A stretch of DNA of 64,000 nt, from NCBI RefSeq assembly GCF_900115245.1, contig NZ_FOVT01000013.1, positions 62,001 to 126,000 on the forward strand. Direction: 5' to 3'. The stretch comes from Mesorhizobium sp. NFR06. GTDB lineage: Bacteria > Pseudomonadota > Alphaproteobacteria > Rhizobiales > Rhizobiaceae. The notes under the pieces are model-generated. The model was given only the letters and a program-made list of their open reading frames with translations. It did no database searches and was not told where the DNA came from. Both the position numbers and the translations under genes were made by a program. Every line of letters starts with the position of its first letter. Positions within the stretch are counted from its first letter, which is position 1. This document shows, in pieces, positions 4,292 to 31,544 of the stretch.

Positions 4292-4301
4292 CAGGTGGAG
4301 G

Positions 4302-5687: not shown

Positions 5688-5786
5688 TGGTCCCGTCTAG
5701 CCGCTTGTGGTGCAAACGCCAAGGGAGACCGGACTTGCTGCATCAGCTGAGACGAAAGTGGCCTCTGTCCTACTGAACAGCTGAAC

Positions 5787-6308: not shown

Positions 6309-6383
6309 GGCGTTCCCCGGCGAAGGCAATCGGCCCGGCACGATGCACCGGACGTGACCTGAAAATCCAGCCGTCTGTGCAAC

Positions 6384-7208: not shown

Positions 7209-7411
7209 GGGAGAGAGTCCCAGAGCTGAATGCCTATCGACCATCATAGTGCCGCTTGCGGCCGGTGAAAATCCGCCGAATGGAGATTGAACTGTCACCG
7301 GGCTTGTCTATTCGAATGGCCGTACGGTCCGTTTCGCAGTAAGATGGAGGGCTCGGACCAAGGAGCGGTCCGGTCAACACGCCTCAGGACGCATTTTCCG
7401 GAGCCTGCACG

Positions 7412-8827: not shown

Positions 8828-8849
8828 AGATCTGAGCCGTCTCCGCCCC

Positions 8850-9329: not shown

Positions 9330-9412
9330 CTGCGATCGTATGTCCTGAACCGGTCCACGAAAATCGGCGATGCCCCCGACCAAAGCCTTTCAGAGCTGGA
9401 GCCGGAGATGTC

Positions 9413-9510
9413 AGCTCGCGTCGACCCGAAATCTGGATCCGGCTCCGAATCAAAGAGATGGAGCATGATGTCGTCCGAAAACCACTTCACACTTTTCGGT
9501 ATCATGCTCT
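9413..9510 (+). repeat. Palindromic intergenic repeat, family A copy 1
   Basis: A long imperfect palindrome begins GAGCATGATGTCGTCCGAAA at 9461 and closes with TTTTCGGTATCATGCTC at 9509. The 50 bp before it (from about 9413, GTCGACCCGAAATCTGGATC) also match the second copy at 21919-22020, which lies in the opposite orientation. This is a RIME-like rhizobial intergenic mosaic element by its form. Confidence 0.85.
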
Positions 9511-9645
9511 GAAACCCGAGGGCGAGGTGTCAAAATCCGATCGATTCTTGCCGCATAGAGCCGAACCACGAACATTGCAACAACCGAACGGCAGCCGAAG
9601 CGCGACGCGCTATAGCCGACACGGCGCGACGCGATGGCGACGACG

Positions 9646-11822: not shown

Positions 11823-11824
11823 GC

Positions 11825-13723
11825 TCAGGACTCTCCAAGCCAGAATGTATCCGGCATGTAGACACCGAAATAGGCGGTCGGGTCGTAGCCGTAGAGTGCC
11901 TTGTCAGGCATGTTGCGCAGTCGCGAGGATGCAAGAACCGGCTGATGCGTCCCGTTCACCGTGCCGATCGAAAACACCTGATCGGTGTAGATCGATAGCA
12001 TTGAATTCCAGATTTCGGCGCGCTCCGCGGCCCCGGTCGATGCGTTCCAGCGCTTGAGCAGAGCCATCAGCTCGATCACTGGCGCAAGATCGGGCGCCTC
12101 GCCGAGCGTGCCGTGAGACAGGTAGTGGGCACCCCAGAGCGGCCATTGCAGCTGGTCGTCGATGGTGGGAGCCAACTGGTACGGATTCATGTCGGCGGTC
12201 GGCACGCCATTGTCGATGCCCGACCATATCGACATCATGATTTCGCCGCCAAGCGCACGGCTGCGGAAGATGTCGCGCTGCGATGTGCGAACGAACAGGG
12301 CGATGCCGATCTTGCGCCAGTGATCGGTGATGAGTTCGAGCGCGTCGGTTTCCAGAGTGCTTTCACCGGCCGTTTCCACGATGATTTGCGCCGGGCGCCC
12401 GTCGGGGAGTATCCGCAGCCCGTCTTCGTCACGCGTCTTGAGCCCGGCCTCGTCGAGCAGGGCATTGGCCTGGTCGGGATCATGGGCGACCCAGGCTTTC
12501 GCGAATTCCGGCCGGTAGAGAGGGCTCTCCGGCAGGACGGTATCGGCGCTTTCCTGCGCCAATCCGTAGAACACGGCCAAATTGATCTCGCGCCTGTCCA
12601 CGGAGAGCGACAGCGCGCGGCGCACGCGCACGTCACGCAACAGGCCGCGCCACACCTTGTCGGCGCAATTCAGGTTGGGCAACAGCGCCAGCCGAGAACC
12701 CTGTGTGCGTTTCCACAGACGCATCTTCACCGGATAGCGCTTCTCCGCATCCTTCAGGAAGGCATAATCGCTGAAGTCAATTCCCATGCATTGCAGGTCG
12801 CTCTCGCCCGCACCGGTCTTGGCGGAAATGATCGCCGACGAGCTGACATCCATGATAACCCGGTCAATATACGGCAGTTGCCTGCCATTCTCGTCTATTC
12901 GATGAAAGAACGGGTTGCGCTCGAAGACGAACTGCTCGGCCGGCGGCTTGGTCCTGTTCTGCCAGGGATCGAGCGTCGGCAGTTCCGGATTCTCCGGGCG
13001 GTATTGCCGCGACATGCGGATATGCAGGAGCGTCCATTTCTTCGCCCGGTTCTCTTCCATCAGGCCGGCGAGCCGGAATGGATCCTGGTATTTCTTGTGG
13101 AACTGCTTGAGATAGGCGGCCGGCAGAACAAGCGACAGCGGCGAGGCGGCAGCAAGCTTGGGCAGGAAGTCGGGATTGGGCGCGTCCCAACTATAGCGGA
13201 CCGTCAACGGATCGACGATTTCGAAGCGGGGCGGCTTGCCGTCCACCATCAGGGTCGGGGGGAGCCCGCCTTGCGAAAGCTCATCGTTGAGCCAGACATC
13301 TTCCCAGCAATAGCGAAAATCCTCCGGCGTCAGCAGGCTGCCGTCGGACCATTTGTGTCCTTCCCGTATCTTGAAGGTGAAGACGCGGTCACCCGCTACG
13401 TCGAAACTTTCGAGAATGTCGGGTTGCAGATTGAGCTTTTCGTCATAGCCGACCAGGCGGGAATACCCGTAGATCGTCATCATCCGGATATCTTTCTGGC
13501 TGCCGATGATCGTGCGCAGCGTGCCGCCATACTGGCCGGGCTGCCGGCCCATCGCGGCGAGATTCACCGCGCGCGGCCTCTTGGGCACGCGTTCGGCGAG
13601 TGCCGGCAACGCCCTGGCCGTCAGCCGCGGCTGAAGAAATTCCGGCTCCAGGTCGCCGGCGCGCGACGTGCTCGGCAGAAATCCCGAAGCCATAAGTCCA
13701 AGGACGGTGCGCCGGCTGATCAA
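11825..13723 (-). CDS. ABC transporter substrate-binding protein, family 5
   Basis: This 632-aa periplasmic family-5 binding protein captures the ligand for the permease pair downstream. The N-terminus carries a twin-arginine-like signal (SRRTVLGLMASG) ending near SRAGD, so export by Tat is possible. Typical family-5 features include the DGSLLTPEDFRYCWEDV block and the late VRRALSLSVDR block. At 632 aa it is longer than DppA/OppA (about 540), like rhizobial oligosaccharide-type members. The start is a TTG at 13723 that overlaps the ATPase stop (TTGA). The ligand cannot be read from sequence. Confidence 0.9.
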   Translation of the reverse strand: MISRRTVLGLMASGFLPSTSRAGDLEPEFLQPRLTARALPALAERVPKRPRAVNLAAMGRQPGQYGGTLRTIIGSQKDIRMMTIYGYSRLVGYDEKLNLQPDILESFDVAGDRVFTFKIREGHKWSDGSLLTPEDFRYCWEDVWLNDELSQGGLPPTLMVDGKPPRFEIVDPLTVRYSWDAPNPDFLPKLAAASPLSLVLPAAYLKQFHKKYQDPFRLAGLMEENRAKKWTLLHIRMSRQYRPENPELPTLDPWQNRTKPPAEQFVFERNPFFHRIDENGRQLPYIDRVIMDVSSSAIISAKTGAGESDLQCMGIDFSDYAFLKDAEKRYPVKMRLWKRTQGSRLALLPNLNCADKVWRGLLRDVRVRRALSLSVDRREINLAVFYGLAQESADTVLPESPLYRPEFAKAWVAHDPDQANALLDEAGLKTRDEDGLRILPDGRPAQIIVETAGESTLETDALELITDHWRKIGIALFVRTSQRDIFRSRALGGEIMMSIWSGIDNGVPTADMNPYQLAPTIDDQLQWPLWGAHYLSHGTLGEAPDLAPVIELMALLKRWNASTGAAERAEIWNSMLSIYTDQVFSIGTVNGTHQPVLASSRLRNMPDKALYGYDPTAYFGVYMPDTFWLGES

Positions 13724-15621
13724 TGGCGTAACTCGCTGACATCGGCCGAACGTCGGGCCAGCACGAGGTGGCCGCCGCCAAGATCGAGCGGCGACAGCAT
13801 GTCCTCCTCGCCCTCGTCACGGAATTGCGGTCCCCATGCGCTGCTGTCGGAAGCGCCGCTGAGCTTCAGCGTCTTGAAATCCATCGGCCGGTCGAGATCG
13901 GGGAAAGGTACTGCGGCGACCAGCGAGCGCGTGTAGGGGTGGATCGGTTTCCTAAGCAGAATTTCGCGCGGCGCGAGCTCGACGATACGCCCGCCGCACA
14001 TCACCGCGATGCGGTCGGCCATGTAGTCCACCACCGCCAGGTTGTGCGATATGAACAGGTAGGTCAGGCCCAGTTCCTTCTGCAGATCTTTCAGAAGGTT
14101 CAGGATCTGCGCCTGGACGGAGACATCGAGCGCCGAAACCGGCTCGTCGCAGATCAGCAGTTCAGGCCCCAGCGCCAACGCGCGCGCGATGCCGATACGC
14201 TGACGCTGCCCGCCGGAGAAACTGTGCGGATAGCGCTTGATGAAGCGTGGATCGAGTCCGATCGCCTGCATCAGGCTCTTGACCGTGGCGAGCCGGGACG
14301 CGGCATTGCCACGTTGGTGGATTTCCAGCGGCTCGCTCAAGATGTTCTCCACCGTCATGCGAGGCGAAAGGGACGACACCGGATCCTGGAAGACCATCTG
14401 GATTTTCGCGCGCAGCTTGCGCATGGCGTCTGCGCCGCCTGCCAAGACGTCGATCGGTCCATCGCGGCCGTTGAACGTCACGGAGCCGCCGCTGGGGGTC
14501 ACCGCCCGCATGAGGATCTTGCTGACGGTGGTTTTGCCGGAGCCGCTTTCGCCGACCAGACCCAGGCACTCACCCCGCCTGATATCGAAGCTCACGCCGT
14601 CCACGGCGCGAACGGAGCTGTGATGATCCCCGCCGAACCATCCGGACTTGCGGATGGTGAAGATCTTTTTCAGGTCCCTGACCGACAACAGGATGTCGTC
14701 CGGCCCCTTCGAAGCCGGCGCCGTCTGCTTGCCGAGCAGGTCCCCGACATTCACCGGCACCTCGCGGAGCGCCTTTAGCCTTTCGCCAGGCTTCAGGTCG
14801 AAATGCGGAACGGCTGCCATCAGGCCCTTCAGGTAAGGGTGACCCGGCCGGCGGAATATCGCCTCAACGGGTCCCGCTTCCATGATCTCGCCATGGTACA
14901 TGACCACCACCTCGTCGGCGACATTGGCGACCACGCCGAGGTCGTGCGTGATCAGCAGCATCGCCATGTTCAGCTTGGTCTGAAGCCCGCGCAGCAATTG
15001 CAGGATTTGCGCCTGGATGGTGACGTCCAACGCCGTCGTCGGCTCGTCGGCGATCAACAGGGCGGGTCGGCAGATAAGCGCCATGGCGATCATGGCGCGC
15101 TGACGCAATCCTCCTGAAAGTTCAAACGGATACATGTCATAGGCGCGCTTGGGATTGGGAAAGCCGACAAGGCTGAGCATTTCCTCGGTCCGCGCCTTGC
15201 GCTCTGCCCGAGCCATGGGCGTATGGATCTGCAGGGATTCGCTGACCTGGTTGCCGATCGTGTGCAGCGGCGACAGCGATGTCATCGGCTCCTGAAAGAT
15301 CTTGCCGATGCGGCTGCCTCTCAAGGCCCGGATTTCGGGTCCGTCACGTGGCATCTGCAGGATATCCTGCGTCGTGCCGGGCTTTTCAGGATCGGAAAAC
15401 AGGATACGGCCGCGCACATGGGCTGTATTCGGCAAAATGCCCATCACGGCCTGGCTCAGAACCGATTTTCCGGAACCCGATTCGCCCACAAGCGCGGTAA
15501 CCTTGCCGGGCAGGACGCGAAGATTTGCGCGCCTGACGGCATGCAACGGTCCCCCGATAATGGCAAAAGAGATGCCAACGTCTTCGATCCGCAGTAGATC
15601 AAAACCCGAATTCATCCTCAC
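13720..15621 (-). CDS. ABC transporter ATPase, fused OppD-OppF type
   Basis: This 633-aa protein has two complete ABC ATPase domains in one chain. The first has Walker [13 protein letters not shown], signature [12 protein letters not shown] and Walker [13 protein letters not shown]. The second has Walker [13 protein letters not shown], signature [15 protein letters not shown] and Walker [13 protein letters not shown]. Both look catalytically intact. The domain order matches a fusion of OppD and OppF, which powers family-5 importers. It is the first gene of the operon, 139 bp downstream of the cyclase gene on the same strand. Confidence 0.93.
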
Positions 15622-15760
15622 ACCAGCCCCACTCTGGTCGGCCCCAGAAAGCGAGACTAGCGTATTGCCAGCCTAGAGCAACTTGGATTCGACACGGTCG
15701 TCGCTGGCGGAAGCGGCGACCGGACTGCCTCCCAAGGGCGTTCGGATCAGATCGTGGCGG

Positions 15761-17101
15761 TTATTGGAGTTTCCTCGGGTCGCCTGCCGACAGCCGCGCA
15801 GCATCGCGGTGAAGCAGCATGACCTGCTCGGCATCCGACCTTCGATCGTAGATCGGCTCCATCGCACCGTCTTCGTCGAGTGCGAGAGCACCCGACAGAT
15901 CGGGTGAAAGCACCGTCAGCTTCTGCTTGATGCCCGCCAGTTCCTCGGCGCCGAGCGTCAGCCAGCTGTTATCGCCGCAATAGCTGGCGAAGTCTTTGCT
16001 GGCGAGAACGCTGTGCGGATATTTCTTGGTCAGGGTCTGGAGGCGCTGGACCTCGTTCACAGCCGAGCCGAAGACCGAGAACGTCAGTCGGTCGGTAAGC
16101 CCGACATTGCCGAACATCACATTGCCGACATGCAGGCCGATGCCAAATTTTATGTCGGACAACCCGTTTTCCTTTCGGCGCAGATTGAGATCCGTCATCC
16201 GCGCCGTGGCCTTGTGCGCTGCCGCGAGAGCAGCCTGGCAGGCGATCTCGGACTGCGAGCGGTGCCTTTCGCAAGGGTACACGGCAATGAAGCCATCGCC
16301 GATGAAGCTCATAATCTGACCGCCGCTGCGATTGAAGGGGGCAGCGACCGCGTCGAAAAACTGGTTCAGCGTATCGATATAGATTTCGCGGCCGGAGGTT
16401 TCGGCGAGCCTTGACGACCCTCGCATGTCGCCCATGACCAGTGCCGCCCGGATTGTATCTCCGTCGCCGCGCTTGATCTGACCGTCAAGGACGCGCCTGC
16501 CGGCATCGCCGCCGAGATAAGTGGCCATCATGTTGTCGGCGAGCTTGGTGAGCACCGCCATCTTGGTTGCGATGGCGAGATGGCTCTGGATGCGCAGCAG
16601 CGCCGAAATCATGCTGTCGCTGAAGCCAGCGGCACTGTCGGTGGACCAGGACCCCATCATGCCCTGACTGGTGTTGCCGTTGAAGGGAAGGACGAAAGCC
16701 ATGTAATCGGTGACGCCCATAAGCCTGAGTTCATCGAAAACAGGAAACTCCGACGGCACCGACGTGTCGAGCCGGCGCCGCAGATGGTCGAGCTTGTGGC
16801 TGAGCAGATGGTAGTATGGGCTGGTCAGGAACCTGTCGGACGCCACGCCGGCCTTTTTGCGGAAGCTTTCCACTTCAAGGCCCTGGCCGCGAAGCCAGGT
16901 GAACCCAAGCGCGTCATAAAGCGGGTGGAGCATCGAAAAGCTCAAATGCACCCGCTTCAGCGGCAGGCCGGCGGCAGCCAGCCGTTCGCAAAAGCCTTTT
17001 ACCAATGTCTCCAGGTCATTGCCCGCCAGCGCCGATTGGTTCAGCCAATCGGCAACCTTGTCCATGAGAATGGTGGAAATTTCTGCTTGCGCTGTGCCCA
17101 T
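15761..17101 (-). CDS. Class III cyclase with uncharacterised N-terminal domain
   Basis: This 446-aa protein has an N-terminal half (about 1-200) that I cannot assign to a family but that looks like a globular sensor (FSMLHPLYDALGFTWLRG). A class III cyclase domain occupies about 215-400. The metal-binding Asp are in VMGDMRGSSRL and SFIGDGFIAVYP, and the N/R pair is in SAVNEVQRLQ. The central part is predicted active. The ATG at 17101 (MGTAQAEIS) is preferred over an ATG-less extension to 17170. It reads toward the OppDF operon, and 198 bp separate it from the sugar dehydrogenase gene. Confidence 0.88.
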   Translation of the reverse strand: MGTAQAEISTILMDKVADWLNQSALAGNDLETLVKGFCERLAAAGLPLKRVHLSFSMLHPLYDALGFTWLRGQGLEVESFRKKAGVASDRFLTSPYYHLLSHKLDHLRRRLDTSVPSEFPVFDELRLMGVTDYMAFVLPFNGNTSQGMMGSWSTDSAAGFSDSMISALLRIQSHLAIATKMAVLTKLADNMMATYLGGDAGRRVLDGQIKRGDGDTIRAALVMGDMRGSSRLAETSGREIYIDTLNQFFDAVAAPFNRSGGQIMSFIGDGFIAVYPCERHRSQSEIACQAALAAAHKATARMTDLNLRRKENGLSDIKFGIGLHVGNVMFGNVGLTDRLTFSVFGSAVNEVQRLQTLTKKYPHSVLASKDFASYCGDNSWLTLGAEELAGIKQKLTVLSPDLSGALALDEDGAMEPIYDRRSDAEQVMLLHRDAARLSAGDPRKLQ

Positions 17102-17368
17102 GCTATCTCGCAACCCGTCGAAGACGGAGCCATTATCCTTTGATCCGCCATAACACAGTCCGCCAGCCACCCAAAGCTTAGCCCCCCGAAGTCAACGAAA
17201 CGTGCTTCGGCAGCAAAAGCGTCGAGCAATTGCCCGGACGACGGTCCTTGCGGCAAAGGAGCGAACGCAACTGCATCCATGTTCTGCCGGCCTTATGTGG
17301 CGAGGCCGCCGGCGGCGTGCAACCACGATCCTGACACCGGGGCAAAAAAATCGCCGGCTCAGACTCCG

Positions 17369-18826: not shown

Positions 18827-20005
18827 TCAGACCGGCACCTTCGCCTTCAGGCTCGCGGCAGCCATCGCATAGCCGCCGGCGCCGCCATCGATGAAGTGAA
18901 CGTGGTCGCGTTGCAGCGGCGAGGCGACGAGGCATGTCATCAAGGCCGATTTCTGGCGGTGAAGGCCATAGTTGCAGATGCCCGCCGCTTCCGCCTGCTT
19001 CAGCCGGTTCTCGATCTGTTGCAACACATCCGCGTCAACGTCGATGGTCATCTTCAAGCCGTCGTCGAACTTCCGGAAGTCCGAATTGCTGGCCACTTCG
19101 CGTTTGTAGATCTTCGGGTCGAAACCGCCGATGGTCCAGCCATATCTATCGGTGACGGCCGTAAGCGTCATCAGGAACAATATCCATAGCTTCGACCGCC
19201 ACCGCCATCCTGCCGGCGCAATGGCCCGCGCCTCGATATCGAGGCCGGCGGGCCAGAAACTGTAGCCTGGCCCGTTCACCGGCACCGGGTGGCCATCGCG
19301 TTCCTGCCTGCCGGCAAGGGCGATGATGTCGGAAACCAGTACCTGAAAATCGCGCGAGTCGCGCGACGCCCCCGGTATGGCTATGATCGAGACGATTTCA
19401 CCATGCCTGGCTTCGATCGGGTTCCAGCGGCAGGAGAGGCCGGTCAGATCCGGCCGCGCGCCGGCCGGCGCGGGATCGATGCGGTAGCGCCCCGCTTTCA
19501 TCTCGGCTTCCGCCCAACTGCCGCCACCGCCGGCGAACATGGCATAGAAGACCGCTTCGGAGGCCTGGAACCGCGCCACGCGAACATCGAGGCCTTGTGC
19601 TCTTATATCCTTTATCGGCACGATTGCCGCACGCAGGGTCAGGTCCAGTTCATCCGCCACCCATCGCTGCACGGCGGCTAGCGCGTTGCGGATTTTCTCC
19701 ATCGCCGAGCCGGGAAACGCCACGAGCGCGCCGTCGCCGCCGAAAACAAAGGGAAGATCTTGCCGACCCAGCGTATTGAGCAGCGCCGAAATGACGCTGG
19801 CGCCGGCCATATTGACGGTTTTGTAGTGCCCAGCCTCGATCGCCTTGGTCGAGCCCACGATGTCGGCGGTGGCCAGCGCCCAGCCATCGGGCAGCGGCCG
19901 ATAGTTGTCTATGTCGGCGACGCTTTCGAACTTTGCGAAGACCGGCAGAGAAGCGACGAACGCGTCAGTTGCGACAGCTGTTTCCATGAGCATCAGATAG
20001 CACAT
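18827..20005 (-). CDS. DUF3095 cyclase-like protein
   Basis: This protein of up to 392 aa belongs to DUF3095, whose N-terminal part resembles a class III cyclase. The first metal Asp is in LATADIVGSTKAIEAG and the second in VFGGDGALVAFP, but I cannot find the usual N/R transition-state pair. Either it is catalytically altered or the positions are different. The second half has one hydrophobic stretch (LWILFLMTLTAV). Three in-frame ATGs (20005, 19993, 19987) are possible starts, and the ribosome site is weak at each. It is divergent from the glycosyltransferase gene at 20080. Confidence 0.82.
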   Translation of the reverse strand: MCYLMLMETAVATDAFVASLPVFAKFESVADIDNYRPLPDGWALATADIVGSTKAIEAGHYKTVNMAGASVISALLNTLGRQDLPFVFGGDGALVAFPGSAMEKIRNALAAVQRWVADELDLTLRAAIVPIKDIRAQGLDVRVARFQASEAVFYAMFAGGGGSWAEAEMKAGRYRIDPAPAGARPDLTGLSCRWNPIEARHGEIVSIIAIPGASRDSRDFQVLVSDIIALAGRQERDGHPVPVNGPGYSFWPAGLDIEARAIAPAGWRWRSKLWILFLMTLTAVTDRYGWTIGGFDPKIYKREVASNSDFRKFDDGLKMTIDVDADVLQQIENRLKQAEAAGICNYGLHRQKSALMTCLVASPLQRDHVHFIDGGAGGYAMAAASLKAKVPV

Positions 20006-20079: not shown

Positions 20080-21168
20080 ATGCGAATTGCCTTCTACGCG
20101 CCGCTGAAGTCGCCCAATCATCCCGTTGTCTCCGGCGACCGCCAGATGGCACGGATGCTGATCAAGGCGCTGGAGCACGGAGGCCACAGCGTCGAACTTG
20201 CATCCGAATTGCGCTTCTATCTACGCGAACCGGAGTCGAAAAGTTTCGATGCGCTCAAGATCGAGGCTCGAGAGGAAGTCGCGCGGCTGACAAGGCTTTG
20301 GCACCGTGACGGCAAGCCCGGTCTCTGGTTGTCCTACCATCCCTATTACAAGGCGCCCGACTTGGTCGGGCCCGCGTTGGCCTCGGCCTTTGCTGTCCCC
20401 TATGTGACGGCGGAAGCCTCCTATTCGAGGCGGCGCAACGCCGGTTTGTGGGCCGATGCGCAGGCGTCGGTGGCGCGAGCCATCGAACAGGCGGCGCTCA
20501 ACATCTGCTTCACGCAAAGGGATCGTCAGGGACTGGCGGATGCGATACCCGGCGCCGCTCTCGGCATGCTTTCGCCCTTCATCGACACATCGGCATTCCG
20601 GGAAAAGCCGGCACGGGGTTGTCCGACGCGCCTTGTTACCGTTGCCATGATGCGCCCGGGCGACAAAGTCGAAAGCTATCGCATACTGGCGCAGGCGCTC
20701 GGTTCGATAAGCCACTTGCCCTGGACCATGTCGGTCGTCGGCGACGGGCCTGCCCGTGAAGAGGTCAAAGCGCAATTCGCCGGCTTGCCGGCCGGCCGTA
20801 TCGAATGGCTCGGCGCGATTGAGCCAGCCGCCGTGCCGGATGTCCTCTACAGTGGCGGAATTTACGTCTGGCCGGGTTTCGGCGAGGCCTATGGCGTCGC
20901 CTATCTCGAAGCGCAGGCTGCCGGCCTTCCGGTGGTGGCCCAGGACATCGCCGGCGTGCCGGAGGTCGTGCGCGATGGCCGCGCCGGATTTCTCACCCCG
21001 CCGGGCGATGTCGCCGCGTTCGCTTCCGCCATCGAAAGGCTTCTGGCCCGTAACGACGAAAGAACCATCATGGCCGCCGAAGCCAGACGTTTCGTCCTCG
21101 AAGAACGTTCCCTTGCTGCTGCGGCGGCGCGTCTGGCCGACTTTCTTGCGAAGATCCCGGTTTCATGA
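20080..21168 (+). CDS. Glycosyltransferase family 4
   Basis: This 362-aa GT-B glycosyltransferase is presumably cytoplasmic. The C-terminal half has the GT4 retaining signature GFGEAYGVAYLEAQAAGLP (E-x7-E) followed by VAQDIAGVPEVVRDGRAGF, which binds the sugar nucleotide. The donor and acceptor are not evident. Its end overlaps the start of the deacetylase gene by 4 bp (ATGA), so the two are translated together, implying that an N-acetylated sugar is added and then deacetylated. Confidence 0.9.
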   Translation: MRIAFYAPLKSPNHPVVSGDRQMARMLIKALEHGGHSVELASELRFYLREPESKSFDALKIEAREEVARLTRLWHRDGKPGLWLSYHPYYKAPDLVGPALASAFAVPYVTAEASYSRRRNAGLWADAQASVARAIEQAALNICFTQRDRQGLADAIPGAALGMLSPFIDTSAFREKPARGCPTRLVTVAMMRPGDKVESYRILAQALGSISHLPWTMSVVGDGPAREEVKAQFAGLPAGRIEWLGAIEPAAVPDVLYSGGIYVWPGFGEAYGVAYLEAQAAGLPVVAQDIAGVPEVVRDGRAGFLTPPGDVAAFASAIERLLARNDERTIMAAEARRFVLEERSLAAAAARLADFLAKIPVS

Positions 21169-21926
21169 CATCCGACCGGATCTGGCAACCCTTGGTGGAA
21201 GAACTGGCGTCCCTGCAGCGCGCCGACCGCAAGGTAGAGTTCTGGCTGCGCGACGATGACGCCGTGGACCCGACGCCTGCGCTTGATCGGCTGCTCGGCC
21301 TCACAGGTGAATTCGCGGTTCCGGTCACTCTGGCCGTTATTCCGGCCCTGACGGATGAGAAGCTTGTTGCCCGGCTTGACCAGGCGCCGCACGCCACGGT
21401 CGCCGTCCATGGCTGGGCGCACCGAAATCATGCGCCCGAGGATCAGAAAAAGCAGGAACTCGGCCCGCATCGGCCACGCGAGGCGGTGCTCGACGACCTG
21501 ACTCGCGGGCTGGCGCGCGTAACCGGCCTGCACGGCGCACGTGCCGTTCCGATGCTGGTGCCGCCTTGGAACAGGATCGACGCCGGCTTGGTACCCGACC
21601 TTGGATCGATAGGATTTGCGGCATTGTCGGTTTATGGGCCGCCGAAGCCGGCTTCGCTGGCGGTCATCAACAGCAATGTCGACATTATGGATTGGCATGG
21701 CACTCGCGGATGCCGCGATCATGCCACGTTGGTTCAAGCAATCGCCGCGCAATTGCAGGATGCGTTCGACGGCGGCGAACCGGTCGGCCTGCTCACACAC
21801 CATCTCGTACATGACGAATCGGCCTGGCTTTTCCTCGAACGGCTGTTCGCGGTCACCGCGCGGGCTGGAGCCTGCGCCTGGCTTCCGATCAGGACATTGA
21901 TCGGGCGCCACGCGTCCAGCGCATGA
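21165..21926 (+). CDS. Polysaccharide deacetylase-like protein (CE4/NodB fold)
   Basis: This 253-aa protein has a NodB-like core. The metal motif is seen as WLRDDDAV (Asp-Asp) and VHGWAHRNH (His-x3-His), and a late LLTHHLVHD supplies a further His. It should hydrolyse an acetyl group from a sugar or a similar amide. There is no signal peptide, so the substrate is probably a cytoplasmic lipid- or nucleotide-linked glycan. The stop codon lies inside a family A repeat (21919 onward). It is translationally coupled to the GT4 gene upstream. Confidence 0.83.
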   Translation: MTSDRIWQPLVEELASLQRADRKVEFWLRDDDAVDPTPALDRLLGLTGEFAVPVTLAVIPALTDEKLVARLDQAPHATVAVHGWAHRNHAPEDQKKQELGPHRPREAVLDDLTRGLARVTGLHGARAVPMLVPPWNRIDAGLVPDLGSIGFAALSVYGPPKPASLAVINSNVDIMDWHGTRGCRDHATLVQAIAAQLQDAFDGGEPVGLLTHHLVHDESAWLFLERLFAVTARAGACAWLPIRTLIGRHASSA

Positions 21927-22190: not shown

Positions 22191-23039
22191 TCAGCGCTCG
22201 TTGTGCAATGGAAGTTTGAGCGTCTGGCCGTCCCGTGCGGCAAATGCGCCGGCAAACCTGTCTTTGGCCAGTTTCTCGATTTCGTCCAGTTGCTCGTCGG
22301 TGCGTGTCGGATCGTGGTGAAACAGCGCAAGCCTCCGCGCGCCGGCCGCCTCGCAGAGCTTGACGCCGTGATCCCATGTCGAGTGCCCGTCACCGCGGTG
22401 GCGCTCCATTTCCTCCTCGGTGTAAGTGCAGTCGTAAATGACGAGGTCGGCATCTTTGATGAGGCCGAGCACCGCCGGATCGAGTTTGTCCGGCTGGTGC
22501 TCGGTGTCCGTGATCACCGCGACCGCGCGGCCGTCCCATTCCACCCGGTAGCCTATGCAGCCGCCCGGATGGGTAAGACTGGCGGTTCGGACCACCACCC
22601 CTTCGCGCGGCCGAAGCACGTCTCCGGATACGAAATCGCGGAAGTCGAGGCTTGCCTTGCAGATATCCAGTTTCACCGGAAACCACGGCGGCCGCATGAA
22701 CTCGTCGACCATCTGCCGGGTCGTCATGCGTCCTGCAAGATGTCCGGACCAAAGCGCAAGCTTGACGCTCCGGTCATAGATCGGTGCGAAAAATGGCAGC
22801 CCGATGATGTGGTCGTAATGGCAATGGGTGAAAAGCAAGTCGAAATCGGTCACGCCCGACGCCCGAAGCGAGCGGCCGGCGGACCGTAGACCGGACCCCG
22901 CGTCGAAGAGAAGCGTATGCTTGCCGCATCGCATCTCGATGCAGATCGTGTTGCCGCCATAGCGAGAGAATTCTGGCCCCGATACCGCAATACTCCCGCG
23001 CACGCCCCAAAACTTGATCAGGAAAACGTCGTCGTCCAT
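22191..23039 (-). CDS. MBL-fold metallo-hydrolase
   Basis: This 282-aa protein has the metallo-beta-lactamase fold. The metal motif is FTHCHYDHIIGLPFF, with a later DTEH (Asp/His) and FHHDPTRT. The N-terminus KFWGVRGSIAVSGPEFSRYG is that of the PhnP/phosphodiesterase-like branch. A phosphodiester, perhaps a cyclic nucleotide, is a plausible substrate given the cNMP-binding protein 74 bp upstream, but this is inference. The ATG at 23039 has GAAGGGG 5 nt upstream. It is the last gene of a three-gene operon with the CNB and ABC-like genes. Confidence 0.88.
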   Translation of the reverse strand: MDDDVFLIKFWGVRGSIAVSGPEFSRYGGNTICIEMRCGKHTLLFDAGSGLRSAGRSLRASGVTDFDLLFTHCHYDHIIGLPFFAPIYDRSVKLALWSGHLAGRMTTRQMVDEFMRPPWFPVKLDICKASLDFRDFVSGDVLRPREGVVVRTASLTHPGGCIGYRVEWDGRAVAVITDTEHQPDKLDPAVLGLIKDADLVIYDCTYTEEEMERHRGDGHSTWDHGVKLCEAAGARRLALFHHDPTRTDEQLDEIEKLAKDRFAGAFAARDGQTLKLPLHNER

Positions 23040-23113: not shown

Positions 23114-23563
23114 TTATTTGCCGCTTCGTGCGTCGATTAGGTCGGCGGTCGTATGGTTCAGGCGATCGGCAAGAACCCGCACCATCTCGATGGTCATTTC
23201 CGGGAACTCCCTCATAAGCCTCAGGAAATGATCCTTGCGGATCCTCAAGGCTTCCAGTTGAGATGCCGCTCTGACGGTGGCGGTGCGGGAGCTGTTGCAC
23301 AATATGGCGATCTCACCGACAATCGAATTTGGCGCCAGCTCGGCGACCTTGATCGGTCCGCTGTCGGAATCGACCAGGATATCCGCCCGGCCTGAAAGGA
23401 TGACATAGGCGGCGTCTCCCTCGTCGCCCTGCCGGAAAAGGATTTGGCCGGCGCTGTAGCTCACGCGATCGGATGTAAACGCAAGCAACTTGAGCTTCGT
23501 CGGCTCTATGCCAGAGAACAAGGGAACGCGTTGCAGCATTCCAACCTCATCCTTGAGCAGCAT
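23114..23563 (-). CDS. Stand-alone cyclic-nucleotide-binding domain protein
   Basis: This 149-aa protein is almost entirely one CNB domain (residues about 12-130) with a short C-terminal helix and no DNA-binding domain. The phosphate-binding cassette reads NSIVGEIAILCNSSRTATV, with the Gly-Glu and Arg that contact the ribose and phosphate of cAMP or cGMP kept. It is therefore a likely cNMP receptor that acts by protein contact, not as a Crp-type regulator. It lies 27 bp downstream of the pseudo-ABC gene and 74 bp upstream of the MBL gene, so its partner is probably one of these. Confidence 0.9.
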   Translation of the reverse strand: MLLKDEVGMLQRVPLFSGIEPTKLKLLAFTSDRVSYSAGQILFRQGDEGDAAYVILSGRADILVDSDSGPIKVAELAPNSIVGEIAILCNSSRTATVRAASQLEALRIRKDHFLRLMREFPEMTIEMVRVLADRLNHTTADLIDARSGK

Positions 23564-23590: not shown

Positions 23591-26305
23591 CTATGAAAGC
23601 AGTTCCTTGAGGATACCGTTCCCTGCCAAAAGTGTCTCGTGTGTTCCGTCTTCCACCAATTGACCCGAGTCGAAGACGATAACGCGATCGAACATCATCC
23701 CCATCGACGGATTCGTCACGACCCATATAATAGCCGGCGAATGACCATCGCGTCTGGCTTCCTCGAGCACGTTTCGCAGCACCTTCTCCTGCATGCGCTG
23801 GTCGAGCGCCGACAACGGCCGGTTGAGGATGAGAAAATCGGGACGCTTGAGCAGGGCCCGGGCAACATCGAGCTTCTGTCGCTGTCCACTGGTCAGCCGC
23901 CTGCCGCCGGAGCCGACGTTGAAGTCCAGGCCGACATCCAGAACCTCGGCATAAAGCCCCAGTTCGTCAAGAATGTCATAGACGATGGAGCGTATGCGGT
24001 CCGGCGCGTCGGGATGGTTGTTGCCCACACGCCCGAACAGGACATTGTCCATGACGGTAGCCGCGGCAATGTATTTGGCGGGATCATACCGTTCGACCGC
24101 GTTTTGCAGCTCGGGCGGCAGGTTTTCGTAGAACCGGTTGCGTGCGGCGACGATCTTGCTCATCAGCTCGTCGCTCAATAGGCCGAAGCGGTGCCGGGGC
24201 TCGATATAGGCAAAGCTCAAGGTGACGATCATGGCGCGGTCATTTTCGGCAACCGCCTCGTACGGACGGTTCTTGAGCCGTTGCAGCAGGGTTTCGTAAG
24301 CGGGTATCTCCTCGGCGCTCATGAAGGCGAGCTGCTGGAAGAACTGGTGATCGGGCGGCAGGTCGGCAAACAGCTCGATCGCCTGCTCGGCGATTTCCAT
24401 GCCCATTTCATAGAGCGTGCGGTCGAGGCCTGCTTGCCTCAGCACTGAAGCAAAATAGGGATTGGCCGCCAGAGCCCTGTCGGCCAGTTCGGGGCCGGCG
24501 GCAGCGCCGAAGAGCAGGTTTTGGCCGATCGTCGCTTCCTTGTTGTAGGCGCCCGGTTCGAAAGGAACCACCAATCCGCTCAGCCCTTCGTGTTCCAGCC
24601 GGGTTCGAAGCGTCGCTCGCAGTTCGATGATCCGCCTGGCAAGCTCCGTGTGACGCGTGAGGTCGGCCGAAGAGCGCAAGCCAAGATCCAGAATGTCGCG
24701 CGACAGAACAACCGCGTCGAGCACCCTGCGCACGGCTTCAAAAAGGTCGCTCGGGCCGGTAGCGCCGACGGAAGCATAGTTGATCCAGTCGCTGTTGATA
24801 TCAAGATCCGAATTGCCCGACCGGAGCGCCTCGTTGATGTTCCAGCGGCGCTGGGCTGCCGCAACACCGTCATAAGTCACCGGTGTCAGCGGCGCATGCT
24901 TCAGCCCGTAGAGCAGGTTATCGCGCAGGCTTGCCTGGAACAGGAAAACATCCGACGAGGCATAGGACATGCGCCGCCCGGTCACTGCTTCGGGGAGTTC
25001 ATGCAGGTCGTCGGCGCCCGAGGCGACCCTTCCGCTGGCCGGCCAGTTCAGCCGCGCGAATGCTTCTGCAAGCGCCTCCGCTCCACCTGTCGCGGTACTG
25101 ACCAGCGCCACCGTCTCGCCCGGCTTGACCTGGAGGGAGATACGGTTAAGCAGCATTGCACCGCCATCGTCTGCTATGGACAGGCTGATCGCCGACAGCG
25201 GCTGGGTCATCGGAGCGGGATCGTCGATCGCCAATGCCCCGATTCTCGGCGCAATGAGGCCCTCGACGGTAAACTGTTCAACGACCTGCTGATATTTGAC
25301 CTGGACATCCTGCCGCGCCTGATCCCAGTCGATCAGTTCCTTCATCGGTCCGGGCAGGTCCTTGTAGGCGCTGATCACGGCTACGAGCTGGCCGACGTCC
25401 AGCCGCCCCTGGATGACCAGATACCCGCCGATCATGTAGAACAGAAAGGGCGTGAGCTGCGCCAGAATATTGTTGAGGAACTTCACCATGAATTTCCATT
25501 GGTAAAGATCGAAGCGAATCTTGAAGATAAGCCCGAGCCGGGCAGCTATGTCGGCGCGCTCGTAGTTTGATGTATCGTGGACGTGAACCGCGCCGATGCC
25601 GTCGACGATTTCGCCAACCCGGCCCGAGAGGGCGCGTGCCGTCAACTGCCGTTCGCGCCCGAGCACGATGAGCCGTCGCCGCATTCGCGGGATGAGCACG
25701 ATCTGGATCAGCACGATCACGACCGCTATCATTCCGAGCCAGAAGTTCTGGACCATGATGAACAGCATGGCCGTCAACGCCTGGCCGCCGAGCAGCACCG
25801 GCTGCAGGAAGGCATCGCCGATGAAGCCGCCCAGCGGCTCCACCTCGTCCTTCACCATTGTCGCCACTTCGGCGGATTTCACCCGCTTGAAGTAGACCGG
25901 CGGAAACCGCAGCACACGATCGACCAGATCGAAGCGGATACGCCGCAGCATGCGTTCGCCGAGGCGGCCCTTGTAGGTGTTGATGTAGAGTTTGAAGAGG
26001 CCGTTGATGATGACCAGCAGGAGGAACACGACGCTCAGGGCAAACAGCGTCGCGGTGCGGTCGAGCTGAAAACCGGAGAAGAACTGGACCTCTCCAATGA
26101 ACGGCAGGTCATAGTGTAGCCTCATGAACGGATGGGTCGCGCCCGGTTGCTCGAAGCCGCGACCCTGGATCGGACCGTTGACGATCAACTTCGGCAGGTC
26201 GAAGGACAAGAAATACGGGATCATCGAAAGCAAGACGATCAGCAATATCCAGATCTGCTGCTTCTTGGTGTGCTTCCAGATATAGCGCGCTAGGCTGGGT
26301 TCCAT
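23591..26305 (-). CDS. ABC-exporter-like protein with degenerate ATPase and large insertion
   Basis: This 904-aa protein has an exporter-type six-helix membrane domain (residues 1-370) and a C-terminal ABC domain (about 375-904). The motifs are degraded. Walker A reads ALVSTATGGAEAL with no Gly-Lys-Ser/Thr (about 400-412). The Q-loop Gln is Ser (SYASSDVFLF). The signature is LTSGQRQK (about 804). Walker B is FLILNRPLSALD, with Asp to Asn and Glu to Arg (about 824). The H-loop His is Asn (VVTNPS, about 865). Between the Q-loop and the signature there is an insertion of about 280 residues. ATP hydrolysis is very unlikely by family rules. I chose the ATG at 26305 because the membrane domain starts there. 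The CNB gene follows within 27 bp. Confidence 0.88.
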   Translation of the reverse strand: MEPSLARYIWKHTKKQQIWILLIVLLSMIPYFLSFDLPKLIVNGPIQGRGFEQPGATHPFMRLHYDLPFIGEVQFFSGFQLDRTATLFALSVVFLLLVIINGLFKLYINTYKGRLGERMLRRIRFDLVDRVLRFPPVYFKRVKSAEVATMVKDEVEPLGGFIGDAFLQPVLLGGQALTAMLFIMVQNFWLGMIAVVIVLIQIVLIPRMRRRLIVLGRERQLTARALSGRVGEIVDGIGAVHVHDTSNYERADIAARLGLIFKIRFDLYQWKFMVKFLNNILAQLTPFLFYMIGGYLVIQGRLDVGQLVAVISAYKDLPGPMKELIDWDQARQDVQVKYQQVVEQFTVEGLIAPRIGALAIDDPAPMTQPLSAISLSIADDGGAMLLNRISLQVKPGETVALVSTATGGAEALAEAFARLNWPASGRVASGADDLHELPEAVTGRRMSYASSDVFLFQASLRDNLLYGLKHAPLTPVTYDGVAAAQRRWNINEALRSGNSDLDINSDWINYASVGATGPSDLFEAVRRVLDAVVLSRDILDLGLRSSADLTRHTELARRIIELRATLRTRLEHEGLSGLVVPFEPGAYNKEATIGQNLLFGAAAGPELADRALAANPYFASVLRQAGLDRTLYEMGMEIAEQAIELFADLPPDHQFFQQLAFMSAEEIPAYETLLQRLKNRPYEAVAENDRAMIVTLSFAYIEPRHRFGLLSDELMSKIVAARNRFYENLPPELQNAVERYDPAKYIAAATVMDNVLFGRVGNNHPDAPDRIRSIVYDILDELGLYAEVLDVGLDFNVGSGGRRLTSGQRQKLDVARALLKRPDFLILNRPLSALDQRMQEKVLRNVLEEARRDGHSPAIIWVVTNPSMGMMFDRVIVFDSGQLVEDGTHETLLAGNGILKELLS

Positions 26306-27894: not shown

Positions 27895-29102
27895 GATCCC
27901 TGGTCTGTTTGATCGTGTGCTTTTCCAAAACCGGGCCGTGTTTTCAGGCACCAGGTTCGATACCGCTCGCGCAGGATTTGCGCCGAGTGACGCGCGCCTT
28001 CCAGATCGAGACGATGCGCGGATGGCGTCGGTGCCGCAAGCGCCTGTTCGATCGCTCGCGCCAGACCTTCAGGCGTTAGGTCATTTTCCGTCAGTACGGT
28101 TGCCAGACCGAGTTCCCCGAGCATCAGGGCGCGAACCGTCTGCTCGGTTTCCCCGCCGGCTGCAAACGGAACGAGCAGGGAGCGACAACCCGCGCGCAGG
28201 ACATCGCAGACCGTGTTGTAGCCCGCCTGCGAGACCGACAGGCGGGCACCGGTAAGCAGGCTGGCGAAATCCTCGCGGAACCTGAAGATGGACAGCCCCG
28301 GCGTGGCATCGCGTGCGATCGCGTCAAACTCGTCCTTCGGCAGGTTTGGACCGGTGATCAAACACCATTTCCAACCGTTGCTGGCATGCCGTGCCGCCGC
28401 GATGGTGGAGCTGACCAGGACCTTTCCGGCAGCCCCGCCGCCAACCGACACCAGAACGTCGAAGCGCTCGGAGGCCGCGGGCGGAGGCGGCGCGGCAACA
28501 AGCCCCGTGTAGGTGATCTCGGCCTTGATCGTCCCAGCCAGTGGAAATGTCCTGTCGATGGTTGCGAAAGCCGGATCGCCGTGGACCATGACAAGGTCGA
28601 AGTGCCTGTTGATGAGATCGACCGTCTCCTCGTTTCGGCCTGGCTTGACGCGCTCCTGGAGGATATCGCGGACGGACGTTGCCAGCAGCGGCCTGGGCGA
28701 CGTCGCGTCGATGGCTTCGATCAGCGGCAAGAGTTCGAAACGCATCTGCCGGCGTCCAAATGGAAACGCCTCGATAATGACGATGTCAGGCCGGCAATCC
28801 CGGAATGCCTGCAGCAGCATCTGTGAACGCGATTTCTTGAAATCATCATCGATGGATTTGCCCTGCAGATCGACAAGTTCGGAAAATCCTTCATCACCGG
28901 AGGTGACGGGTGGCAGGATTACGGATTTTACCCCCGGTCCTGGAAACCCCGCGACCGGCGCTCCGCCGGTCACGACGGTTACGTCAAACCCGTCATCGGC
29001 CAGAGCCGCCGCAATGCGGCTGGCGCGCGCGAGGTGGCCGATGCCGAGCAGGTGCTGGACATAGAGGAAGGCGCGCAGCTGCTTCAATCGGCGGCCCGCC
29101 AC
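27891..29102 (-). CDS. Glycosyltransferase, MurG-like (COG4671 type)
   Basis: This 403-aa GT-B protein has the N-terminal signature YVQHLLGIGHLARASRI of the predicted-glycosyltransferase group COG4671. A MurG-like C-terminal donor-binding part follows (VSVGGGAAGKVL, LSVSQAGYNTVCDVLRAG). Donor and acceptor are unknown. The start is GTG at 29102, which overlaps the end of the previous glycosyltransferase gene by about 19 bp. The stop codon lies in a family B repeat. It is the third gene of a three-glycosyltransferase operon that starts at 31544. Confidence 0.88.
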   Translation of the reverse strand: MAGRRLKQLRAFLYVQHLLGIGHLARASRIAAALADDGFDVTVVTGGAPVAGFPGPGVKSVILPPVTSGDEGFSELVDLQGKSIDDDFKKSRSQMLLQAFRDCRPDIVIIEAFPFGRRQMRFELLPLIEAIDATSPRPLLATSVRDILQERVKPGRNEETVDLINRHFDLVMVHGDPAFATIDRTFPLAGTIKAEITYTGLVAAPPPPAASERFDVLVSVGGGAAGKVLVSSTIAAARHASNGWKWCLITGPNLPKDEFDAIARDATPGLSIFRFREDFASLLTGARLSVSQAGYNTVCDVLRAGCRSLLVPFAAGGETEQTVRALMLGELGLATVLTENDLTPEGLARAIEQALAAPTPSAHRLDLEGARHSAQILRERYRTWCLKTRPGFGKAHDQTDQGS

Positions 29103-30328
29103 TCGCGCTCGAACAGCTCCTTGAGCTGCCCAATGCTTGCCATATGATCGAAATTGCCGCGCACGCGCCGCTCAGCGGCCTCGCCGAGGCGGGCGCGCAG
29201 CACAGGATCACGGATCAGGCGCTCCAGCGCCTGTGCCAGGGCAACCGGGTTTTCCGTCGGAACCAGCAACCCGGTCTCATCCGGCAACAAAAGCTCCGGC
29301 ACGCCGGAAATATCGGTCGACACGCAGGCAAGCCGCTGGCTGGCAGCCTCCACGAGAACATTCGGCAGACCGTCGCGGTCGCCATTTGCGGTGATCCTGC
29401 AGGCCAGCGCGAAGATGTCGGCGCTGCGGTAGTGCTCGAGTACCTGCTCCTGAGCAAGCGCTCCTTTCCAGGAGACGCGACCGCTCAGTCCGAGCTTTTG
29501 CGCCAGCGCCCTGAGCCGTTCCAGTTTCTCGCCGTCGCCGATATGCTCGAAACGCCACGCCAAATCGCCGGGCAAGAGGGCAAGGGCCTCCAGCAAGGTA
29601 TCGTAGCCTTTCTTTTCAACGGCGCGCCCGACGCTCAAAATGACAACCGGTTCGTCCGGCGCCGAGCCGTCATGCTGTTTTCGCGCGCCGCCGAAACTGC
29701 CGAAGCGATGAAGGTCGAGCCCATGGTAGCTCAGATGCACTGACGAGTTGCCGTTGGCGAGTTCTTTCAGACGGTCGAAGCCGGTCTTCGTGCAAGTGAC
29801 CGTCCAGCGCGCAGAGGAAAGCTTGCCAGCCAGATCCCAGTCCGCCGAAGTCCAGATGTCCTTGGCGTGGGCTGAGCAGCTCCAGGGCAGGCTACGAAGC
29901 TGGCTGGCGTAGCGGGTAACCGATGCCGGCGTGTGCGCGAAATGCGCATGCAACCATTCCGCGCCTTCCGGCCATTCGGCCGCCAGCACGAGCGCTTGCC
30001 CGAAGCGGCGCGCGCGATTGCGCGTAAAGTCGCGAGGGATATCGCTGGCCAGCGATGCGAGCGCGCGCCAGAAGGCCGGTCGCGGCAGATAAGCAAACAG
30101 CGAGCGAAGCACGCGCAGCGGCTCTTGATGCAGATATTCCGGCAGATAGTGGACGGGCGCTTTGATCTCGTCATGCACGGGGTGGCGTTTTGCGTCGGTT
30201 GGCCGCCTGAGCGCGACCAGTATCAGGTCGAACCCCGCTCGCTCCAGACCGAGCAGTTCCTGCGCGATGAAGGTTTCCGACAGCCGCGGATAGCCCTTCA
30301 GAACCACGACGATCTTGCGATTTTGCAA
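29084..30328 (-). CDS. Glycosyltransferase family 4
   Basis: This GT4 protein of about 414 aa has the donor-binding half VVILSVGRAVEKKGYDTLLE and the signature region GDRDGLPNVLVEAASQRL (E-x7-E-like). I chose the TTG at 30328, with GAGGGA 9 nt upstream, over a TTG at 30346 which has no ribosome site. Both overlap or abut the end of the upstream gene (stop at 30330). It is the middle gene of the glycosyltransferase operon and probably acts in sequence on the same glycan. Confidence 0.88.
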   Translation of the reverse strand: MQNRKIVVVLKGYPRLSETFIAQELLGLERAGFDLILVALRRPTDAKRHPVHDEIKAPVHYLPEYLHQEPLRVLRSLFAYLPRPAFWRALASLASDIPRDFTRNRARRFGQALVLAAEWPEGAEWLHAHFAHTPASVTRYASQLRSLPWSCSAHAKDIWTSADWDLAGKLSSARWTVTCTKTGFDRLKELANGNSSVHLSYHGLDLHRFGSFGGARKQHDGSAPDEPVVILSVGRAVEKKGYDTLLEALALLPGDLAWRFEHIGDGEKLERLRALAQKLGLSGRVSWKGALAQEQVLEHYRSADIFALACRITANGDRDGLPNVLVEAASQRLACVSTDISGVPELLLPDETGLLVPTENPVALAQALERLIRDPVLRARLGEAAERRVRGNFDHMASIGQLKELFEREWRAAD

Positions 30329-30329
30329 G

Positions 30330-31544
30330 TCAGTTGATTCCCTCAATGACCGACAGGTGATGGCCGGCCCGCCGGTCGAGCAGTTCCGCGACGATTTCGG
30401 AAATATGAGGCAGCCCTTCCAGCGTCAGATGCGGATTGCTCTGTGAGGGGCGGGGCCGGTTCGGCAGCGCCACCAGCGCATCGGCAAACCGTTGGGAATC
30501 CTTGGCTTCCTCGGGCAACAGCATCTCGACGAGGCCGAGCTCGGCTGCTCGCCGGGCTCGGATCAATTGTTCCTCGCGGGGCTCGATGCGCGGGACGATC
30601 AGCGCCGGCTTGTCGAAAGACAGTATCTCGCAATAGGTGTTGTAACCGCCCATCGCCACCACCGCCTTGGCGCCGGCAATCAGGTCTTCCATGCGGTTGT
30701 CGAACTCGATGATCTTGATGTAGGGGATCTTGGCCCCCTTCTTGAGCAGCTTGTTGCGCTTGCGCGCCGGCATGTAGGGCCCAAGCACGATCAGCGCCCT
30801 ATGCTGCAATTGTGGATCCTGCTGATAGGCATCGACGACGTCGTGGATCAGTTCGGCGCCGTCACCCCCGCCACCGGTGGTAACGAGGATATACTCGCCC
30901 TCGGGCCGGTGGCCGGGCAATTCGTTCCGTTGCAGGCTGCGTTGCAGGAAACCGACGAACCTTATCTTTGCCCTGATAGCGGGAGGCACATCCAGGCCGG
31001 TCAACGGATCGTAGAAATCCGGCGGACCATAGGCCCAGATCTTGTCGTAGAACAGGCCTATCTTGCGCATCACATCCCTGCGCGCCCACTCTGCCTCGAG
31101 CAGATGCGGCGCATCCATCACCTCGCGCAGGCCAAGCACGAGCGTGGTGCCGCGCGTTTTGAGGTAGGACAGCGTGTCCTCAATCTCGCCGCGCAGGCCG
31201 AGCGGCTCCTTGTCGACGATGAAGATATCCGGCCGGAAGCTCTCGGCCGTGTGGCGGATGATCGACTGGCGCATCCTCAGCGTCTCATGCAGATCGATAT
31301 CCTTTTCCAGCGAGGTGTATTCGCCGTTGCGCAACTTGATGACGCTGGGGATCTTCACGAAGTCGACTCGAGCGCGGTAATCGAAGGCGCCGGCGATAGT
31401 CGCACCCGAAATTATGAGCACCTGAAGCCCGCGGAAATCCTCGACCAGCGAATGCGCGATCGTCCGGCAGCGCTGCAGGTGGCCGAGCCCGAACGTGTCG
31501 TGGCTGTACATGAGAATTCGAGCGTTTTCTGCGTGCTGGGTCAT
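30330..31544 (-). CDS. Glycosyltransferase, MurG-like (COG4671 type)
   Basis: This 404-aa protein is related to the product of 27891. It shares the N-terminal signature (MYSHDTFGLGHLQRCRTIA) and the C-terminal VVAMGGYNTYCEILSFDKPA, where a Gly-rich turn binds the nucleotide. Two paralogues in one operon suggest two related sugar additions. It is the first gene of the operon; the pseudogene remnant lies just upstream, and the ATG at 31544 has a modest purine run before it. Confidence 0.88.
   Translation of the reverse strand: MTQHAENARILMYSHDTFGLGHLQRCRTIAHSLVEDFRGLQVLIISGATIAGAFDYRARVDFVKIPSVIKLRNGEYTSLEKDIDLHETLRMRQSIIRHTAESFRPDIFIVDKEPLGLRGEIEDTLSYLKTRGTTLVLGLREVMDAPHLLEAEWARRDVMRKIGLFYDKIWAYGPPDFYDPLTGLDVPPAIRAKIRFVGFLQRSLQRNELPGHRPEGEYILVTTGGGGDGAELIHDVVDAYQQDPQLQHRALIVLGPYMPARKRNKLLKKGAKIPYIKIIEFDNRMEDLIAGAKAVVAMGGYNTYCEILSFDKPALIVPRIEPREEQLIRARRAAELGLVEMLLPEEAKDSQRFADALVALPNRPRPSQSNPHLTLEGLPHISEIVAELLDRRAGHHLSVIEGIN

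Follow-up and report, generated by a model that had tools for sequence, protein, structure and literature searches.

Genes at the locus

The window (the whole stretch of DNA analysed, 64,000 nucleotides from Mesorhizobium sp. NFR06) carries on its minus strand an open reading frame for an ABC-exporter-like protein with altered ATPase motifs, referred to here as the pseudo-ABC protein. A gene for a small cyclic-nucleotide-binding (CNB) protein follows 27 bp downstream, and glycosyltransferase and nucleotide cyclase genes are found on the flanks.

9646-15621, minus strand: oligopeptide-type ABC importer (SBP_bac_5, two permeases, fused double ATPase), recurrent beside the pseudo-ABC locus
15761..17170, minus strand: class III nucleotide cyclase domain protein, with a homologue in 23 of 80 named loci
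18827..20005, minus strand: DUF3095 protein, possible distant relative of class III nucleotide cyclases (Pfam, hhalign)
20080..21168, plus strand: glycosyltransferase, GT4 type (Pfam)
21165..21926, plus strand: polysaccharide-deacetylase-like protein (weak match, below cut-off)
22191..23039, minus strand: metallo-beta-lactamase (MBL)-fold hydrolase (weak NCBIfam match to cyclic nucleotide phosphodiesterase, below cut-off)
23114..23563, minus strand: CNB protein, 149 aa, without DNA-binding domain (Pfam cNMP_binding, E-value = 9.2e-23)
23591..26305, minus strand: pseudo-ABC exporter coding region, 904 codons plus stop, 904 aa
27891..29102, minus strand: glycosyltransferase, Glyco_tran_28_C (Pfam)
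29084..30346, minus strand: glycosyltransferase, Glycos_transf_1 (Pfam)
30330..31544, minus strand: glycosyltransferase, Glyco_tran_28_C (Pfam)

Domain layout of the pseudo-ABC protein

The intact 904-codon frame reported in the initial annotation, which gave no strand, is confirmed and lies on the minus strand. The exporter-type membrane domain (TMD) joined to an ABC domain is borne out by Pfam as well, but an insertion of about 314 aa in the nucleotide-binding domain (NBD) had been overlooked. The parts of the protein are as follows.

25271..26305, minus strand: TMD, type IV exporter fold, residues 1-345 (Pfam ABC_membrane, model, structure match)
24881..25270, minus strand: linker and N-terminal part of the pseudo-NBD, residues 346-475 (Pfam, model)
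25076..25099, minus strand: degenerate Walker A, STATGGAE, residues 403-410 (sequence and family alignment)
23939..24880, minus strand: insertion, residues ~476-789 (hhalign self-comparison; model pLDDT mostly ~90)
23594..23938, minus strand: C-terminal part of the pseudo-NBD, residues 790-904 (sequence, model)
23882..23896, minus strand: signature remnant, LTSGQ, residues 804-808 (sequence and family alignment)
23819..23836, minus strand: degenerate Walker B, FLILNR, residues 824-829 (sequence and family alignment)

Pfam gives ABC_membrane at residues 86-312 (E-value = 1.6e-18) and ABC_tran in two pieces. A six-helix exporter TMD followed by an NBD, as in the type IV ABC exporter fold, is found by Pfam, in the model and by structure match. 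The AlphaFold2 model, made with a 42-sequence alignment, shows a pLDDT of 84 and a pTM of 0.78, with the NBD region mostly at 90 or above. Residues 364-904 of the model match the complete ComA NBD (3vx4) over 239 of 239 residues with Z = 27.7 and an rmsd of 2.1 A (VIA-align), and residues about 2-904 match many exporters at Z 26-27 (VIA-align; also in the Foldseek list). Because of the match to the ComA NBD, the two NBD pieces are predicted to form one ordinary NBD from which the extra residues are looped out. The best NCBIfam match is MsbA, TIGR02203 (E-value = 1.2e-51); however, the pseudo-ABC protein stays far below the cut-off (175.9 vs 602 bits) and differs from MsbA by the lost motifs and the insertion.

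Loss of ATPase motifs in the window protein and its family

The motif readings of the initial annotation are correct; the Walker A site is STATGGAE, the Walker B site FLILNR and the signature LTSGQ. In the Walker A site the Lys is replaced by Ala and the first Gly by Ser, and NR stands in place of the Walker B Asp and the catalytic Glu. The Q-loop Gln and the H-loop His are absent as well; position 451 is S and position 864 is T.

For the family, 210 full-length frames and the window protein were reduced to 182 distinct sequences and then to 112 representatives less than 85% identical. Homologues with intact Walker A and B motifs, which would have pointed to local decay, were looked for, and the full motif set is intact in 0/112 representatives; the best retains 4 of 7 elements. 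Local decay is therefore rejected. In a plain pattern search, GxxGxGK[S/T] is found in none of the 182 distinct full-length homologues vs 13/13 canonical exporter controls, an LSGGQ-like pattern in 5/182 vs 12/13, and hhhhD[E/Q] in 23/182 vs 13/13, so that neither chance nor a faulty alignment explains the loss. The H-loop pattern, which matched 0/13 canonical controls, was given no weight.

Residue by residue, the Walker A Lys position of the 112 representatives shows Lys in 37, Arg in 33, Ala in 20 and Gly in 13, and the position after it Glu in 60, Asp in 32 and Ser or Thr in 10. The Walker B Asp position is Asn in 74 and Asp in 18. The catalytic Glu is present in 34/112, the H-loop His in 17/112, the Q-loop Gln in 15/112 and the D-loop Asp in 97/112, and the signature region mostly reads RL[S/T]xxQRQK. 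Thus the statement that every motif is degraded holds for the window protein but not for all relatives, of which a minority keep single residues such as the Lys or the Glu. Judged by these residues, the ATPase of the pseudo-ABC protein is very probably dead.

The gene is under purifying selection (median dN/dS 0.17, 19 of 19 orthologues), in agreement with the earlier view that it is selected and no pseudogene. By part, dN/dS is 0.16 in the TMD, 0.20 in the N-terminal part of the NBD, 0.17 in the insertion and 0.22 in the C-terminal part. Many TMD residues are invariant, both in an alignment of 11 and in one of 42 sequences. From the motif counts, the pattern result in the 182 homologues and the dN/dS, the motif loss is therefore old, family-wide and constrained.

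Of the 37 genus genomes, 24 (the window's own genome counted) have full-length homologues at a level of at least 90%, and 8 of 24 genomes from elsewhere in the order have them at 33-53%. A match at E 1e-60 was obtained in 98 of 289 class genomes and in 31 of 398 in the phylum sample. The family is present in 262 plasmid records, and named contigs that carry it belong to Mesorhizobium, Rhizobium, Sinorhizobium, Phyllobacterium, Brucella, Loktanella and Plasticicumulans, among others; 80 out of 453 confirmed stretches were examined as named loci. No description of the pseudo-ABC protein was recognised in the literature searched. The family is real, widespread and, as far as that literature shows, undescribed.

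A triplicated segment in the NBD

The NBD is interrupted at about residues 476-789, between the Q-loop and the signature. An hhalign self-comparison shows that the insertion consists of two further copies of the Q-loop/helical segment. In exporters, a motif like [T/S][I/L/V]xx[N][L/V]L[F/Y]G comes after the Q-loop, and such a motif is found in each of the three copies (sequence, hhalign).

24905..24931, minus strand: repeat motif of copy A, SLRDNLLYG, residues 459-467
24506..24532, minus strand: repeat motif of copy B, TIGQNLLFG, residues 592-600
24032..24058, minus strand: repeat motif of copy C, TVMDNVLFG, residues 750-758

Profiles of the segments were cut from the 112-row alignment (A 437-560, B 555-650, C 700-800) and compared with hhalign. 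B vs C gives a probability of 99.3% and E = 5e-20, and A vs B or C 92.8% and E = 3.9e-7, whereas seven control pairings, including the TMD and other NBD parts, give at most 0.6%. An internal duplication is favoured because the segments match one another and not the controls, and for the same reason a foreign domain is rejected as the source of the insertion, as far as the sequences can tell. In real exporters the Q-loop/helical segment contacts the coupling helices.

A distant branch (L211, L212, L214, L223 and L224) matches with 252-265 bits over about residues 499-858 and has a diverged membrane domain. The triplicated segment is seemingly the most conserved part in this branch, because it is best kept while the membrane domain has diverged. 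No CNB gene was found beside these five in the flanks examined.

The CNB partner

The CNB gene is adjacent to or fused with the pseudo-ABC gene in 105 of 112 representatives, as the gene directly downstream in 95 and as a C-terminal fusion in 10. One of the remaining representatives stops at a contig end, and 6/112 have room for the gene but show no CNB match by the rules used. Three of these six (L181, L193 and L203) have a CNB match in the second neighbourhood survey described below; the other three (L195, L197 and L198) have none in either survey.

The partner has the cNMP-binding domain and the key residues of Crp/Fnr proteins, but at 149 aa it differs from them in having no DNA-binding domain that could be found; cNMP_binding is the only domain given by Pfam, with no HTH after it. 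The phosphate-binding cassette G-E ... R-[S/T] is present. In 105 aligned CNB sequences the ligand residues are Gly83 in 104, Glu84 in 95 (with Asp in another 8), Arg93 in 103 and Thr or Ser at 94 in 96, and by these residues the CNB protein can be expected to bind cyclic nucleotides. At the level of residues, the ATP-binding fold has lost its own and the cNMP-binding fold has kept its own.

Gene neighbourhood

A first neighbourhood survey covered the 80 named loci and 8 further ones from the order, 88 in all. The CNB gene was found in 87, the MBL hydrolase in 41, DUF3095 in 28 and the three glycosyltransferases in 70, 68 and 67, these last counts being upper bounds because some matches of 22-31% identity cross between neighbouring glycosyltransferases. 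One or other glycosyltransferase is absent in 18-21 of the 88 loci, partly because the sequence ends. A second, class-wide survey also took in 88 loci, 8 of them common to the first and three of them loci of proteins without an NBD (see below). Here the CNB gene was found in 76, glycosyltransferases in 52, 49, 45 and 43, the deacetylase-like gene in 29 and the MBL hydrolase in 8; where genes overlap or are fused, the relative positions from this survey should not be read as distances. Permeases of the oligopeptide-type ABC importer are near the pseudo-ABC locus in 45 of 80 named loci.

Four of the genome's 28 Guanylate_cyc domain hits are situated in the 64-kb window, at 1485-16441, within 15 kb of each other. 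A cyclase is found in 43 of the 80 named loci, many of which are close relatives, where 0.10 per locus would be expected at the density of this one genome. Among the 68 representatives with enough flank on both sides, a cyclase lies within 5.5 kb in 19 (about 0.06 expected per locus, on the same basis) and is absent within that distance in 49. It is the gene right after CNB in 7/82 representatives. The Plasticicumulans contig L101 carries ABC, CNB, cyclase, glycosyltransferase, deacetylase-like and DUF3095 genes together. The cyclase there (L101:7023-8759, plus strand), directly after CNB, is of class III and has a 2Fe-2S ferredoxin domain (Fer2); it is possibly a redox-sensing cyclase.

The motifs ADIVxST and GGDG of the DUF3095 protein (18827-20005) align with class III cyclases. 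The hhalign comparison gives a probability of 73.5% and E = 2.9e-5 over 42-98, covering both motif regions, while a profile search of PDB sequences with DUF3095 found no cyclase. No mention of DUF3095 was found in the literature searched. By its motifs, DUF3095 may be an unrecognised cyclase family.

Relatives without an NBD

Homology searches also yield frames of about 314-413 aa that match the membrane domain only. With the TMD profile, near-full-length relatives of this NBD-less type give 122-324 bits vs 25-46 for canonical exporters. Three are NBD-less ABC-exporter membrane domains in copper-resistance-type operons.

L210:5917-7158, minus strand
L220:5785-6984, plus strand
L298:4001-5200, plus strand

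These three adjoin genes like multicopper oxidase and CopB (checked with Pfam for L210 only), and in L210 a PCuAC chaperone gene then follows. No conserved NBD gene is found beside the NBD-less frames; 3 of 21 have one in the flank examined, and two of those three are UvrA-like by their first residues.

A TMD tree was made with 36 of the 112 pseudo-ABC rows, 14 of the 21 NBD-less frames (shorter frames and near-copies were left out) and 13 canonical rows. A 100/100 branch separates the canonical exporters from the other rows. The copper-operon group clusters with the pseudo-ABC proteins (97/95), with the other NBD-less groups outside; because long branches were flagged, the exact position of the NBD-less groups is uncertain. 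In several settings, judging from these relatives, this membrane-domain lineage seemingly does without its own ATPase.

In Mesorhizobium L253 (1209-5847), an NBD-less membrane protein at 3512-4534 lies between class III cyclase genes at 1209-2654 and 4777-5847. The cyclase at 1209-2654 resembles the DUF5939-cyclase of the window, and a small-GTPase-like gene adjoins.

Comparison with known systems

CFTR and sulfonylurea receptors are ABC proteins that act as gates of a pathway and not as pumps, and SUR2 chains are found among the structure matches to the model. Both bind ATP, whereas the likely ligand site of the pseudo-ABC system is a separate CNB domain. The overall fold of the type IV (type I) exporters with a degenerate nucleotide-binding site (TM287/288, TmrAB, TAP, CFTR) is the same, and there too a non-canonical site is under selection. 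The known examples, as described in PMC7756269, retain one canonical, active site; in contrast, a homodimer of the pseudo-ABC protein would have two non-canonical sites, and its NBD segment is triplicated.

SbmA has an ABC-type TMD without an NBD and uses the proton gradient, according to PMC13316013. The pseudo-ABC protein is like SbmA/BacA (SLiPT) in having an ABC-exporter-type TMD without an ATPase, but it keeps an enlarged pseudo-NBD and a CNB subunit. It is not a member of that family; Pfam gives PF00664 and PF00005 only, with no SbmA_BacA match at E up to 0.1.

Interpretation and alternatives

The motif loss, the purifying selection, the triplication, the linkage or fusion to a CNB protein with its ligand residues, the glycosyltransferase neighbourhood and the NBD-less relatives, all read from sequence, lead here to the proposal of a permease or flippase of ABC fold that works without ATP, moves a surface glycan and is gated by cyclic nucleotide through the CNB subunit. 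A probability of roughly 45% is given to this reading. The pseudo-ABC protein would probably be a homodimer and would have given up ATP hydrolysis. With the two extra segment copies, the pseudo-NBD would form a regulatory platform between the membrane domain and the CNB subunit, and the latter would be in physical contact with it. Cyclic nucleotide on the CNB subunit would change the pseudo-NBDs and their state would be relayed to the coupling helices, so that the membrane domain is opened, closed or alternated. The fold suggests transport, and the neighbouring glycosyltransferases point to a glycan as substrate, either a lipid-linked intermediate or an exported glycan. The driving force would be the gradient of the substrate itself or the proton gradient; by analogy, SbmA may serve as a precedent for a proton-driven ABC-type TMD. 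The CNB protein could act away from the pseudo-ABC protein, which is disfavoured because of the 10 fusions to the pseudo-ABC C-terminus.

Sulfonylurea receptors regulate a channel, and by analogy the ABC-like body might be a non-transporting membrane receptor or scaffold. In response to a lipid or glycan that it senses, it would, together with CNB, control either the glycosyltransferases or a genuine transporter. The lost NBD motifs and the linked signalling genes (CNB, cyclases) would agree with this. However, the well conserved TMD with its many invariant residues and the persistence of NBD-less relatives in unrelated contexts such as copper operons suit transport, and besides CNB no partner is conserved in all loci; a receptor or scaffold is considered possible but rather doubtful. 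Partner genes of heterodimeric exporters are commonly adjacent. An adjacent catalytic partner was not found here; a TMD+NBD exporter lies within 4 kb in only 1/112 representative loci (L202), and the tight partner is CNB. That the protein is the degenerate half of a heterodimer with its catalytic half elsewhere in the genome appears unlikely for the same reasons, although many canonical exporters are present in the genomes searched and degenerate sites are frequent in non-homodimeric exporters, as described in PMC7756269.

ATP or another nucleotide might also be bound without hydrolysis and gate the pseudo-ABC protein, with CNB as a second input. In its favour, the Walker A Lys position holds Lys in 37 and Arg in 33 of 112. 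Throughout the family, Glu or Asp takes the place of Ser/Thr (92/112) and Asn that of the Walker B Asp (74/112), as if the site had been altered in a defined way and not by random decay. But in the window protein itself the Walker A Lys is replaced by Ala and the first Gly by Ser, and at the Lys position 20 of the 112 have Ala and 13 have Gly, which makes this quite improbable. A recent local decay or pseudogene has nothing in its favour except the degraded motifs; with no intact member among the 112, no GxxGxGK[S/T] match among the 182, a dN/dS of 0.17 and a presence in 98/289 class genomes, it is ruled out for practical purposes.

A sensor, a scaffold or a gated channel had been guessed at in the initial annotation. 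Because of the CNB linkage in 105/112, the triplicated segment and the NBD-less relatives, a gated transporter or channel appears the most specific of the three. ABC exporters are taken as ATP-driven. A broader conclusion, put forward tentatively, is that this would be a cyclic-nucleotide-gated ABC-fold transporter with a cNMP switch in place of the ATP engine, and with an NBD grown by triplication of the segment that contacts the membrane domain. It would belong to a wider lineage of ABC-exporter TMDs working without ATP, one branch having a pseudo-NBD and others, including those in copper-resistance operons, no NBD at all.

If the cyclic-nucleotide-gated reading is correct, a family found in about a third of the sampled class genomes would show the change from a pump to a signal-gated permease. 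Rhizobia have many cyclases (28 domain hits in the genome of the window) and would gain a direct, non-transcriptional target of cyclic nucleotides at the cell surface. Together with its NBD-less relatives, the pseudo-NBD family would then be a natural series on what drives the ABC fold without ATP.
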